From positions 496,001 through 560,000 of the forward strand of contig NZ_CANMTX010000001.1 of assembly GCF_947500985.1 (NCBI RefSeq): a stretch of DNA of 64,000 bases. Direction: 5' to 3'. Numbering within the stretch: position 1 is the first letter of the stretch; every line of letters starts with the position of its first letter. A program made the position numbers and the translations under genes. Shown in pieces: positions 28,139-37,322 of the stretch. The DNA comes from an uncultured Maribacter sp. GTDB taxonomy: Bacteria; Bacteroidota; Bacteroidia; Flavobacteriales; Flavobacteriaceae. The notes under the pieces are model-generated. The model saw only the letters and a list, made by a program, of their open reading frames with translations, did no database searches and was not told the DNA's origin.

Positions 28139-28564
28139 ATGGATATTAAACTAATCACTTTTAAAGAAGTTACGGCAGACCTACAATCTCAACTTACTGA
28201 ACTCTATAAACAATTGAATGCTGAGTTAACGCAATTAGATTTGGCAACAGCTCTTTCTGATTACAATACTACAAATGTTGTAATTTGTTTGGACGATGAT
28301 AAATTAGTTGGTATTGCTATGATGGCAAAATACAAAGTGGTATCTGGACACAAAGGAATGATTGAAGATGTAGTCGTTTCTTCTAAATACCGAGGTCAAG
28401 GTATTGGGAGAAAGCTAATGGAAAAACTTTTAGAACAGGCAGAAATATCAAAACTTGACGACGTTCTTTTATTCAGTGGTCACCACAGAACTGCGGCAAT
28501 TTCTCTCTATAAAAGCTTAGGTTTTAAATTAAAAGAGAGCGGAATGTATATTAAAAAATATTAA
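28139..28564 (+). CDS. GNAT-family N-acetyltransferase
   Basis: 141 residues with the GNAT fold: IEDVVVSSKYRGQGIGRKLMEKLL carries the acetyl-CoA motif A (R-x-x-G-x-G) and HHRTAAISLYKSLGFK is motif B. The enzyme transfers an acetyl group from acetyl-CoA to an amine; the acceptor is not predictable. Its stop is 10 bases from the convergent repressor gene. Confidence 0.88.
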   Translation: MDIKLITFKEVTADLQSQLTELYKQLNAELTQLDLATALSDYNTTNVVICLDDDKLVGIAMMAKYKVVSGHKGMIEDVVVSSKYRGQGIGRKLMEKLLEQAEISKLDDVLLFSGHHRTAAISLYKSLGFKLKESGMYIKKY

Positions 28565-28574
28565 AGCTTTACTT

Positions 28575-29342
28575 TTAATTAACCTTCTTAACGTGTTGTA
28601 ATTGATCTTTTAACTCCTTCATTGATTCTTGCAACTGACGTAAAAGACTATTATCTGTAGTAGCATCTACATTAAAAGTGATTTTACTACTCACCTCCCA
28701 TATTTCTTGAATCTGAAATGGTTTAATATCATAAGGCGGGTAGGTTTCATTTAAAGAGATTAGGGTAATATTATTTGAGTTTGGTCGTTTTTCTACTTTC
28801 TTAACCATAATGGAATCTTGAAGTACAACAACATACATTTTATTTGCACTCACGTAATCTATATGTTCAATTGCCCTAGCCAAAACCCATTCTCCCGGAT
28901 GCAAATTAGGTAACATACTATCACCTTCTACTTGAAACCCTCTATAGGTTGCATTTCTAAATTCAGGAATAGGTAAATCGAATGCAGGTAATTGTTGATA
29001 CCAACTAGTATCTGATATATTCTGAGGATAACCGGCTGCTGCTTTTGCATTCACCAAAACCATATTTTCGCGATTTGCAGAATCAACCGTTACCACTTTA
29101 GGTATAACACTAGTTCTTGAAGTCTCTAAATACTGTTCTTCACTTTCACCAAACAACCAAAGCGGATTAATTTTAAATTGCTTCAACAACTCTAAAACAA
29201 CTTTACCAGAAAGTTTAGTTCTACCTCGCTCTATATCTGCTGTTGTATTAGAAACACCAATTAGTGCAGCAAAATCTGCTTGAGTATAGCCTAGCTCTCT
29301 TCTTAAATCAGTAAATCGCTTTAATGTCAGTTCGTTTTCCAT
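28575..29342 (-). CDS. HTH/S24 autocleaving repressor (LexA/CI-like)
   Basis: 255 residues. Residues 8-60 form an XRE-type helix-turn-helix (RRELGYTQADFAALIGVSNTTADIERGR-like). Residues about 95-230 are an S24/LexA peptidase domain with all self-cleavage elements: a scissile Ala103-Gly104 in AAAGYP, nucleophile Ser142 in EGDSMLPNLHPGEWV and general-base Lys181 in SIMVKKVEK. The protein should dimerise on DNA and be inactivated by RecA-stimulated cleavage, as LexA and CI are. The sequence between it and the divergent repair operon has four tandem palindromes, its likely operators. A prophage repressor is the alternative, but no phage genes are present. Confidence 0.88.
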   Translation of the reverse strand: MENELTLKRFTDLRRELGYTQADFAALIGVSNTTADIERGRTKLSGKVVLELLKQFKINPLWLFGESEEQYLETSRTSVIPKVVTVDSANRENMVLVNAKAAAGYPQNISDTSWYQQLPAFDLPIPEFRNATYRGFQVEGDSMLPNLHPGEWVLARAIEHIDYVSANKMYVVVLQDSIMVKKVEKRPNSNNITLISLNETYPPYDIKPFQIQEIWEVSSKITFNVDATTDNSLLRQLQESMKELKDQLQHVKKVN

Positions 29343-29400
29343 ATTCTTTTCCGCCTCAATAAAGATTTTATACCTCTTTATATTTCAAATATAGTGATTA

Positions 29401-29474
29401 TGGATTATATCCAAAATATTAATTGGATTATTTCCATAATTAGGAATATTTCCATAATTTTGGATTAATTACCA
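29401..29474. promoter_or_regulatory. Tandem operator-like palindromes upstream of the radical SAM repair gene
   Basis: Four related imperfect palindromes in 74 bases: TGGATTATATCCA at 29401-29413, TGGATTATTTCCA at 29424-29436, AGGAATATTTCCA at 29442-29454 and TGGATTAATTACCA at 29461-29474. The pattern is TGGAW-N3-WTCCA, with starts 23, 18 and 19 bases apart. The array ends 7 bases before the radical SAM ATG and begins 59 bases from the repressor start. This is an arrangement expected for cooperative binding of a dimeric repressor controlling both genes. Confidence 0.7.
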
Positions 29475-29480
29475 GTTACT

Positions 29481-30740
29481 ATGGATTTTAATAGAATAAA
29501 AGAAAAATTAAATATTCTCGCCGATGCCGCTAAATATGATGTATCCTGCTCAAGTAGTGGCAGCAACCGCAAAAACAAGGATAATGGCTTAGGTGATACT
29601 GGTAATGGCATCTGCCATACCTATACAGAAGATGGTCGTTGTGTTTCGCTTTTAAAGATTTTGCTGACTAATCATTGCATTTTTGATTGCGCCTATTGTG
29701 TTACCCGTAAAAGCAATGATATTCAACGAGCTGCATTTAAAATTCAGGAAGTAGTAGATCTTACCATTAATTTTTATAGAAGAAATTATATAGAAGGGCT
29801 ATTCTTAAGTTCTGGCATCTTTAAAAGCGCAGACCATACTATGGAAAGACTTATTGCCGTAGCGAAAAAATTACGCGAAGAAGAAAACTTCAACGGGTAT
29901 ATTCACCTCAAATCAATACCTGGTGCAAGTGATGAATTAATGTATGAGGCCGGTTTATATGCTGATCGTTTATCGGTTAACATTGAAATCCCCACTATCT
30001 CCGGCCTTAAACTTTTAGCTCCAGATAAAAAACATGAAGATTTCATTAAACCAATGCTGAAGGTGAAGAATGAAATTATACGTTATAAGGAAGAAAGTAA
30101 AATCATTAAAAGCACTGCAAAATATGCTCCTGCAGGGCAAAGCACGCAAATGATTGTAGGTGCTACAGGTGAAAGTGATAAAGATATTATGTATTCTGCC
30201 ACTCACTTTTATAAAAACTATCAGATGAAGCGGGTTTACTATTCTGGTTATGTTCCTATCTCTACAGACAGCAGATTACCTTCTTTGGGTTCTGAAGTAC
30301 CCATGCTTCGTGAAAACCGATTATATCAAACAGATTGGTTACTTCGATTTTACGGCTTTAGTGTCAATGAAATTTTAGATACAGATAATCCAAATTTAGA
30401 TATGGATATCGATCCCAAATTGATGTGGGCACTTAGAAATCTAAATCATTTTCCTGTAGATATTAATAAGGCAGAACCACGAATGTTAGCAAGAATTCCG
30501 GGGATAGGAATGGGCTCTGTTCATAAAATTATAAGCGGAAGAAAATACCGCCGATTAAGCTGGGAGCATCTAAAAAAAATGGGAATTGCACTCAATCGAG
30601 CAAAGTATTTTATCATCTGTAACTCTTCTGATTGGGAACGAAGAGATTTAGACGCAGCTACCATAAAAGGAATGATTCTTCAATCTCAAAATAGCAAATT
30701 CAAAAATCAGTACAACAATCAATTATCCTTATTTAACTAA
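29481..30740 (+). CDS. Putative DNA modification/repair radical SAM protein (TIGR03916-like)
   Basis: 419 residues. The radical SAM CX3CX2C cluster is Cys66, Cys70, Cys73 (HCIFDCAYCVTRKSN), which holds a 4Fe-4S cluster that reduces S-adenosylmethionine. A C-terminal helix-hairpin-helix near 328-365 (MLARIPGIGMGSVHKII) suggests DNA binding. The family is related to spore photoproduct lyase and is known to occur beside TIGR03915 proteins and uracil-DNA glycosylase-like proteins, which suggests repair or modification of DNA bases; the reaction is not established. It is the first gene of a short operon facing an autocleaving repressor. Confidence 0.88.
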   Translation: MDFNRIKEKLNILADAAKYDVSCSSSGSNRKNKDNGLGDTGNGICHTYTEDGRCVSLLKILLTNHCIFDCAYCVTRKSNDIQRAAFKIQEVVDLTINFYRRNYIEGLFLSSGIFKSADHTMERLIAVAKKLREEENFNGYIHLKSIPGASDELMYEAGLYADRLSVNIEIPTISGLKLLAPDKKHEDFIKPMLKVKNEIIRYKEESKIIKSTAKYAPAGQSTQMIVGATGESDKDIMYSATHFYKNYQMKRVYYSGYVPISTDSRLPSLGSEVPMLRENRLYQTDWLLRFYGFSVNEILDTDNPNLDMDIDPKLMWALRNLNHFPVDINKAEPRMLARIPGIGMGSVHKIISGRKYRRLSWEHLKKMGIALNRAKYFIICNSSDWERRDLDAATIKGMILQSQNSKFKNQYNNQLSLFN

Positions 30741-30762
30741 ACTAATAATTTAATTAAACTAA

Positions 30763-30939
30763 ATGACTATGGAAAATATTAATAACACATTGAACTCGAC
30801 AAATATTTCAATTTCAAATACTGTTATTGACCGTAGTCAGAGTCAAATATTAGCAATAGGATACCAAATGGTATTATTAAAAACTAAGATTAAAAAAAGA
30901 CTAAAAATTGTATCACGAATCTTTTTCTTCAACTTCTAA
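30763..30939 (+). CDS. Possible 58-residue protein in the repair operon
   Basis: An open frame of 58 codons (ATG 30763, or ATG 30769) begins 22 bases after the radical SAM stop and ends 11 bases before the TIGR03915 start, filling the gap. The product begins MTMENINNTLNST, is Ser/Asn-rich, and ends in a basic then Phe-rich tail (KIKKRLKIVSRIFFFNF). No known domain is recognised. Position and tight fit favour a real small gene, but it could be untranslated leader sequence. Confidence 0.4.
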   Translation: MTMENINNTLNSTNISISNTVIDRSQSQILAIGYQMVLLKTKIKKRLKIVSRIFFFNF

Positions 30940-30950
30940 AACTGGTTATT

Positions 30951-31727
30951 ATGAATGCTTCAAAAACTTTAGTTTACGATGGTAGTTTTAATGGTTTTTT
31001 AACTGCTGTATTTATAGGCTTTGAACATAAGCTTACACATGCCGATATTCAAAAACAAGGGCAATTACAGAGCGGTCTTTTTGCTGAAACAGAAACTATT
31101 TTTACAAATATTGAAAAAGCACAACGGGTTTGGAACGGAGTACGGAACAAAAGTAATACTGCTATTAAAAATATTTATTTTGCCTTCTTGAGCGAACAGA
31201 ATAATATGGAAGCTTTAATCTACCGTTATATTCAAAAGTTAATGGGAAGTAAACACAAGGGAGCAACTGATTTTAGTGATGATGGAGTTTTAAAGATAAA
31301 TCAACTTGCACATAAGGTCGGAAGAGAAAAGCATCGCATGGAAGCTTTTGCACGGTTTCAATTAACAAAAGACGATGTTTATTTTGCGAACATAGAACCA
31401 GATTTTGATGTACTTCCTTTAATCTCTAAGCATTTTAGAAATCGTTACGCCGACCAACAATGGATAATTTATGATGTTAAACGTAAATACGGATTGTTCT
31501 ATGATTTGAATACTGTTGAAATTATATCACTTGACTTAACAGATATTCACTCAAATAGTATTGAAAAGAGTTCTGCATTTACTGAAGCGGAATATGAATA
31601 TCAAGATCTTTGGAACAACTACTTTAAAAGCACAACTATAAAATCTCGTATTAATAACAAACTACATGTTCAACATGTACCAAAGCGTTATTGGAAATAT
31701 CTGTCGGAGAAAAAGGAAGCTGTTTAA
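30951..31727 (+). CDS. TIGR03915-family putative DNA repair protein (DUF4130)
   Basis: 258 residues with the family opening LVYDGSFNGFLTAVFIGFEHK, the RVWNGVRNK block near 61, LAHKVGREKHRMEAFARFQ near 122 and the WIIYDVKRKYGLFYD segment near 181. TIGR03915 proteins occur beside TIGR03916 radical SAM proteins and are sometimes fused to a UDG-like (UdgX-type) domain; no such domain is present here. The role is probably DNA repair, with mechanism unknown. It is the second large gene of the operon after the autocleaving repressor. Confidence 0.87.
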   Translation: MNASKTLVYDGSFNGFLTAVFIGFEHKLTHADIQKQGQLQSGLFAETETIFTNIEKAQRVWNGVRNKSNTAIKNIYFAFLSEQNNMEALIYRYIQKLMGSKHKGATDFSDDGVLKINQLAHKVGREKHRMEAFARFQLTKDDVYFANIEPDFDVLPLISKHFRNRYADQQWIIYDVKRKYGLFYDLNTVEIISLDLTDIHSNSIEKSSAFTEAEYEYQDLWNNYFKSTTIKSRINNKLHVQHVPKRYWKYLSEKKEAV

Positions 31728-31969: not shown

Positions 31970-32224
31970 ATGAATTATAAGATAAATGCTATCTCAGATT
32001 TCAATAATGATGGCGAAATACATATAAAGGAATCTAATATTGTCTTTGGCACTACAAGTAAAACTTCAGAGTCACTACCAAATCCTGCTGAGTTATTTTT
32101 AGGCTCTTTTGCTTCGTGTATGCTAAAAAATGTAGAACGCTTTTCTTTGTTGATGAAATTTAAATATAACCATACTGTAGGCTTCCCTAAAAATGTAGGC
32201 TTCCCCTTATTAGGACACCTCTAA
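31970..32224 (+). pseudogene. Truncated OsmC-family protein
   Basis: 84 codons. Residues 1 to about 68 match the N-terminal half of an OsmC/Ohr-type protein (INAISDFNNDGEIHIKE; NPAELFLGSFASCMLKNVERF), which includes the first redox cysteine region (ASCM). The family is normally about 135-140 residues and needs a second cysteine in the missing half. From residue 69 the sequence becomes an in-frame 18-bp tandem duplication (VGFPKN/VGFPLL) and stops. It therefore looks like a fragment left by deletion, and peroxidase activity is not expected. Confidence 0.75.
32176..32205 (+). repeat. Direct repeat TGTAGGCTTCCC at the OsmC break
   Basis: Two copies of TGTAGGCTTCCC at 32176-32187 and 32194-32205, 18 bases start to start. 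They mark a tandem duplication exactly where OsmC homology ends, so they are probably a rearrangement scar. Confidence 0.65.
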
Positions 32225-37309: not shown

Positions 37310-37322
37310 TGGATTATATCCT
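37310..37322. promoter_or_regulatory. Palindrome TGGATTATATCCT between the NTF2-like gene and panB
   Basis: Twelve of 13 bases are identical to the first operator-like palindrome at 29401-29413, and the inner 11 bases form a perfect GGAT-TAT-ATCC palindrome. It sits 63 bases from the NTF2-like start and 58 from panB. It may be another binding site for the same repressor or chance. Confidence 0.35.

Follow-up and report, generated by a model that had tools for sequence, protein, structure and literature searches.

The window analysed here, 64,000 nucleotides from an uncultured Maribacter sp. (contig NZ_CANMTX010000001.1, positions 496,001 to 560,000), carries a LexA-like repressor gene that faces a radical SAM (rSAM) gene of family TIGR03916 and, behind it, a gene of family TIGR03915. 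We read this locus as part of a general SOS regulon, in which a LexA protein acting on three operators would repress its own gene, the rSAM-TIGR03915 pair, the dinB2-dnaE2 genes and a further rSAM gene of the PA0069 family, and in which TIGR03915 would be built of two parts, a core and a tail. To this reading, which is drawn from sequence comparison, we give a probability of roughly 0.85. A preliminary description of the same DNA had already proposed a damage-inducible module here, and the coordinates and strands of its three open reading frames (ORFs) match ours exactly. The coding features are as follows.

28575-29342, minus strand: HTH_3/Peptidase_S24 repressor gene, a non-canonical LexA (GGA-N5-TCC group), from the ORF list, family models and residues
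29481-30740, plus strand: TIGR03916 rSAM gene, from family models, with CX3CX2C at residue 66 and a weak C-terminal helix-hairpin-helix
30951-31727, plus strand: TIGR03915/DUF4130 gene, from family models
30951-31535, plus strand: TIGR03915 core, residues 1-195, largely retained in copies without rSAM (orphans); predicted fold DHH/RecJ/Cdc45-like
31548-31727, plus strand: the C-terminal tail of TIGR03915 (residues 200-258 plus stop), strongly conserved where rSAM is present and degenerate where it is absent

The repressor combines a helix-turn-helix (HTH) domain of the HTH_3 family (PF01381, 34.9 bits against a cut-off of 23) with a Peptidase_S24 domain (PF00717, 49.9 bits against 23.3), and its A103-G104 cleavage bond and its S142/K181 dyad both lie where they had been placed before. 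The winged HTH of canonical LexA (LexA_DNA_bind, PF01726) is absent among its matches at E <= 0.001, with HTH_3 in its stead. The rSAM protein reaches 661 bits with TIGR03916 (cut-off 343.5) and bears the CX3CX2C motif attributed to it; the C-terminal helix-hairpin-helix also attributed to it is a weak match, PF12836 scoring 21 bits below a cut-off of 27. The third gene had been correctly named as TIGR03915 (275 bits, cut-off 112; DUF4130, 182 bits). These two families are its sole matches at E <= 0.001, and no uracil-DNA-glycosylase (UDG) domain is found at that threshold; its named homologues indicate Maribacter. Adjacent, on the same strand and both far above cut-off, the two proteins resemble the known TIGR03916/TIGR03915 pair (rSAM_link_UDG/DUF4130). 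A figure legend lists DUF4130 as a predicted mutagenesis-related enzyme (PMC3765255). In the literature searched, any of the names DUF4130, TIGR03915 and TIGR03916 appears in a single paper.

Operators and promoters between lexA and the rSAM operon

The palindromes previously noticed in the spacer are real: the 138 bp between the divergent start codons hold three GGA-N5-TCC sites, which lie on or beside putative promoter elements.

29386-29393, minus strand: -7 box of lexA, TATATTTG, after a Bacteroidetes promoter consensus
29402-29412: operator 1, GGATTATATCC, a GGA-N5-TCC match
29412-29414: TTG (-33 type) of the lexA promoter, 18 bp upstream of its -7 box and touching operator 1
29425-29435: operator 2, GGATTATTTCC, a GGA-N5-TCC match 23 bp from operator 1
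29443-29453: operator 3, GGAATATTTCC, a GGA-N5-TCC match 18 bp from operator 2
29455-29462, plus strand: -7 box of the rSAM operon, TAATTTTG, starting one base past operator 3

None of 20,000 dinucleotide shuffles of this spacer contained three sites (mean 0.045). Across the whole window the motif occurs 5 times against 5.5 expected, no excess over chance, and it is therefore the clustering in the spacer, not the frequency, that stands out. The -7 and -33 assignments follow what we take to be the Bacteroidetes promoter consensus; the rSAM promoter has no TTG at the expected distance from its -7 box.

The layout was compared at 87 LexA loci, of which 52 face rSAM, 26 face an orphan TIGR03915 and 9 face neither (drawn from 33 such genomes, 114 - 56 - 25); the duplicate loci L056, L064 and L072 were left out here as well as from both trees and the tree tests below. 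At least two operators are present at all 87. At least three are found at 44/52 loci facing rSAM and 22/26 facing an orphan, against 0/9 facing neither, and a -7 box no more than 30 bp past the last operator follows the same division (46/52, 24/26 and 0/9, respectively). The lexA-side -7 box lies near operator 1 at 45/52, 20/26 and 3/9 of these loci, and a spacing of 23 (or 22) plus 18 bp recurs in most close relatives. Since the third site and the right-hand -7 box occur, among the loci compared, only at partner-bearing ones, operator 3 looks like the partner's, and operators 1 and 2 like the repressor's own.

The LexA group and its regulon

Non-canonical LexA proteins of Bacteroidetes, including a group that recognizes GGA-N5-TCC, have been described previously (Sanchez-Osuna 2021; PMC8565304). 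According to the Results and passages of that study, LexA of Salegentibacter agarivorans binds GGA-N5-TCC specifically and the predicted SOS genes of this organism are induced by mitomycin C, all tested except recA; RecA-dependent cleavage in the group is argued from conserved residues, and the predicted regulon comprises dinB with DNA polymerase III alpha, a splB-like rSAM (COG1533), umuDC and a COG1573-COG4277 operon (PMC8565304). The Maribacter repressor shares with this group the CI-like HTH plus S24 architecture, the Ala-Gly and Ser/Lys residues, operators at its own promoter and a home in Flavobacteriaceae, and its genome displays the group's trait of sites at several SOS genes, here dinB2-dnaE2, the PA0069 rSAM gene and rSAM-TIGR03915. 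In alignment it also has the HTH stretch TADIERGRTKLSGKVV in common with L219, a presumed Salegentibacter protein. Operator, architecture and common HTH stretch together place it in the GGA-N5-TCC group. We take the COG1573-COG4277 operon to be of the same type as the TIGR03915/TIGR03916 pair. It is printed as COG1573 (UDG)-COG4277, whereas the TIGR03915 protein of the window has no UDG domain, so that the published operon's label of base excision does not carry over to it directly. The three-operator spacer with its rSAM operon, its -7 boxes and the orphan TIGR03915 genes is not described in the Results and passages of PMC8565304, supplements lying outside this scope, and the words "divergently" and "Maribacter" are absent from its main text.

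In a sample of 299 family genomes, with the GGA-group repressor defined by at least 45% identity, the repressor occurs in 114 and TIGR03916 in 76; both occur in 56, so that repressor and pair do keep company in related genomes. TIGR03915 accompanies the rSAM gene in 76/76 genomes, within 1.5 kb in 75 of them. The gene order and the spacer palindromes, whose conservation the preliminary description had proposed to look for, both recur: repressor and rSAM are divergent neighbours in 43 of the 76 rSAM genomes, next to the operators seen at every LexA locus compared. Where the repressor is at least 70% identical, the order is divergent in 22/22 genomes having both genes.

These features permit a mechanism to be proposed. 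LexA bound to the three operators would cover its own promoter and the divergent TIGR03916-TIGR03915 promoter, and would repress by occlusion, the operators being placed on or beside the -7 boxes. Upon DNA damage, filaments of RecA on single-stranded DNA would bring about cleavage of LexA at A103-G104; both promoters would then open, and the pair would be made together with the DinB2-DnaE2 translesion polymerase. That damage induces the operon through a repressor of the self-cleaving type, as first suggested, appears likely from the residues, the three operators, the published relative and the recurrent divergent order.

The further suggestion that this circuit is private, the repressor being dedicated to itself and the rSAM operon, is not supported. 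It would suit the divergent adjacency in 43/76 rSAM genomes and the three operators in a common spacer; however, no PF00717 protein besides the repressor was found in its genome at E <= 0.001, operator pairs also stand at dinB2-dnaE2 and at the PA0069 rSAM gene, and 58 of the 114 repressor-group genomes have no TIGR03916. We consider a private circuit very improbable, and the repressor looks like a general SOS repressor instead. Its CI-like HTH and S24 architecture could also suggest a prophage protein of CI type that has become parked beside host repair genes. This seems scarcely credible, as no phage-looking ORF of at least 80 aa lies at 23.8-36.8 kb (read by eye, six of them scanned with family models), 114/299 family genomes have an ortholog (identity at least 45%), and conserved operators lie at host repair genes.

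The wider regulon emerges from clustered sites. When the genome was searched for operators standing close together in pairs, 5 matches were found, as compared with 1 in the control: two overlapping ones in the lexA/rSAM spacer, one at dinB2-dnaE2, one at the PA0069-family rSAM gene and one at C9:4158, which was set aside because it lies inside an ORF (L183). In the genus relatives fetched, dinB2 promoters carry two sites in 20/20 cases (40 sites against 0.51 expected), and an operator pair is found in 7/8 promoters of presumed umuDC, our label for eight Y-family polymerase genes of 426-448 aa. At the dinB2 and presumed umuDC promoters (L151-L178) the paired operators are spaced by 19 bp, as compared with 23 + 18 in the LexA spacer. 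Two operators precede dinB2 (L166) also in the genus member G006, which lacks a TIGR03916 match. The other dinB of the window genome has no site at its promoter.

In genomes with a GGA-group LexA whose rSAM gene is detached from it, sites occur at 6/13 rSAM promoters (10 sites against 0.53 expected), compared with 0/20 in genomes without this LexA, which supports regulation rather than mere linkage. In listings read by eye, a TAnnTTTG box lies 0-1 bp past the operator in 5 of the 6 site-bearing detached promoters, dinB2 promoters have TAATTTAG or TAAATTAG at about the same place, and presumed umuDC promoters show no box of this type past the operator. The motif CTAA-N5-TTAG was found 0 times in the three rSAM/dinB2 promoter sets, with one site each in L010 and L178. 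When the genome was scanned for an operator followed by a -7 box, there were 3 matches in the forward and none in the reverse direction, as compared with 1 and 3 for the controls, a result that carries little weight alone; one match is C1:767601. Two sites at C2:664392 and C2:664554 were dropped, both being within one long ORF. Also left aside was a lone GGATTATATCC at window 37311-37321, which lies 58 bp before a panB-like ORF and has no -7 box directly past it.

TIGR03915 without its radical SAM partner

TIGR03915 occurs without a TIGR03916 match in 25 genomes and as a second copy in G329, giving 26 orphans in total (a 70-aa fragment in G205 was left out). All 26 are divergent to LexA, with 142-453 bp between the matched stretches. 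G329 itself has a paired full-length TIGR03915 (L114) alongside a tail-degenerate copy facing LexA (L189).

Loss of conservation in the orphans is graded along the protein. Positions were called conserved when at least 90% identical in 26 non-redundant paired rows (of 43), and kept when found in at least 75% of orphans; by this measure 14/16 are kept in residues 1-100, 12/32 in residues 101-199 and 0/24 in residues 200-258. Among those lost are H128, M130, F133 and R135 of the REKHRMEAF helix as well as D168/Q169. Position 242-243 of the TIGR03915 model is reached by a copy in each of the 76 rSAM genomes and by 2/26 orphans. The tail of L079 appears intact in a genome (G100) without a TIGR03916 match, perhaps after a recent loss of rSAM. 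In six orphan pairs the proportion of nonsynonymous differences (pN) ranges from 0.22 to 0.31 for the core and from 0.35 to 0.52 for the tail, at a synonymous proportion (pS) of 0.68-0.88, which is near saturation; in one of these pairs, L189/L192, the core/tail split is displaced by an ORF extension upstream. In two comparisons of paired, rSAM-bearing copies, core and tail pN are alike.

Approximately unbiased tests, which set two quick trees against each other for groups picked after the tree was seen, reject a single orphan clade on the LexA tree, whether it comprises all 26 orphans (p 1e-51) or the main-clade 22 (p 4e-5). The presence of rSAM requires at least 9 changes on this tree, and starred branches force 4 of these. 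The TIGR03915 tree, where long branches meet, forces only two at minimum. Repeated loss of rSAM with retention of the core seems the simplest reading of these patterns.

The main rival to core retention is that the orphans are functionless remnants, decaying after rSAM was lost. Their long branches in the TIGR03915 tree, their degenerate tails and the 5/26 that score below the family cut-off would all be expected of such remnants. However, 0/26 matched stretches have internal stops, core pN stays below both tail pN and pS in the six pairs, with pS near saturation, a short orphan form has relatives at 46-85% identity that are about as long (205 aa in most cases), and at least two operators are kept at 26/26 orphans, with the right-hand -7 box at 24/26. 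Such decay is rather unlikely in our view, albeit an alternative to be taken seriously. Orphans might otherwise have swapped partners and work with the SOS-regulated rSAM of the PA0069 family, whose gene has an operator pair in the window genome and which is present in 21/25 orphan genomes. Its frequency in rSAM genomes is similar (61/76; no clear difference; 170 genomes counted, 6 of them below the family cut-off), 4/25 orphan genomes do without it, and the tail tied to rSAM is degenerate in orphans, all of which makes a swap improbable.

Several points weigh against our reading of an SOS-controlled pair with a two-part TIGR03915. As many as 20/32 conserved positions of residues 101-199 are lost in orphans along with the tail, and the orphans evolve fast, so that some may be decaying. 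No site is found at 7/13 detached rSAM promoters; three of these have LexA 4-6 kb away and one is near a contig end. Over the whole genome, neither single GGAWWWWWTCC sites (54, as compared with 80 in a reversed-pattern control) nor TGGAW5TCCA sites (7, as compared with 18) are enriched. For this reason sites are informative only in clusters or at promoters, and single ones were not counted as regulon; context was viewed for 15 of the 54 matches, plus a few others later. Related genomes are not independent, and both the co-occurrence counts and the Fisher test made on them ignore phylogeny. Finally, 20/76 rSAM genomes have no GGA-group repressor and, as noted, 58/114 repressor genomes have no TIGR03916; control by this LexA is hence not essential to the pair.

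Other neighbours can be mentioned briefly. In L073, L076, L080 and L082 the orphan TIGR03915 is closely followed by the start of what we read as a uvrA gene, and in L203 such a gene lies near LexA; the window has no uvrA motif. A GNAT acetyltransferase gene (28139-28564) is convergent with lexA in the window, and a GNAT-looking gene also adjoins LexA in L073, L076, L077, L078 and L082. At 31970-32224 an ORF with an OsmC-like start ends early with repeated VGFPKNVGFP, perhaps a truncated gene; it was read by eye and has no family-model match.

A possible division of labour in TIGR03915

The TIGR03915 core possibly adopts a DHH/RecJ/Cdc45-like fold. The likeness to DHH/DHHA1 phosphoesterases and Cdc45 (RecJ, PAP phosphatase) resides in the predicted fold, and a search for a relation at the level of sequence failed: profile comparison with RecJ (hhalign) gave probabilities of 0.2 and 0.6%, no DHH family is among the best 25 of 31 Pfam families listed for 51 TIGR03915 members, and sequence searches of the PDB returned nothing useful.

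We propose that the core (residues 1-195) would have its own SOS-linked function, and that the tail would serve the rSAM enzyme together with a portion of the REKHRMEAF helix. In its fullest form, which we put forward tentatively and at slightly less than even odds, a core that may be DHH-like acts alone in the SOS response beside LexA, the tail hands over to the rSAM enzyme or is needed by it, and rSAM disappeared on more than one occasion, leaving the core divergent from LexA and behind its operators. For the pair as a whole, lesion processing alongside translesion synthesis is a reasonably probable role.

The locus belongs to a published kind of LexA. Our literature search, outside of which lay subscription journals and supplements, turned up no paper on orphan TIGR03915, on the three-operator layout or on the core/tail split, and no assignment of the pair's repair chemistry was found in it. 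By the present analysis an rSAM/TIGR03915 pair whose function is unproven comes under what is likely the general SOS repressor in many marine flavobacteria, and the exact layout of operators and promoters makes LexA control of the pair directly testable. The orphans amount to a natural dissection, which separates residues tied to rSAM from those kept without it. That TIGR03915 persists alone beside LexA is a new clue to the function of the pair and a route into its repair chemistry.

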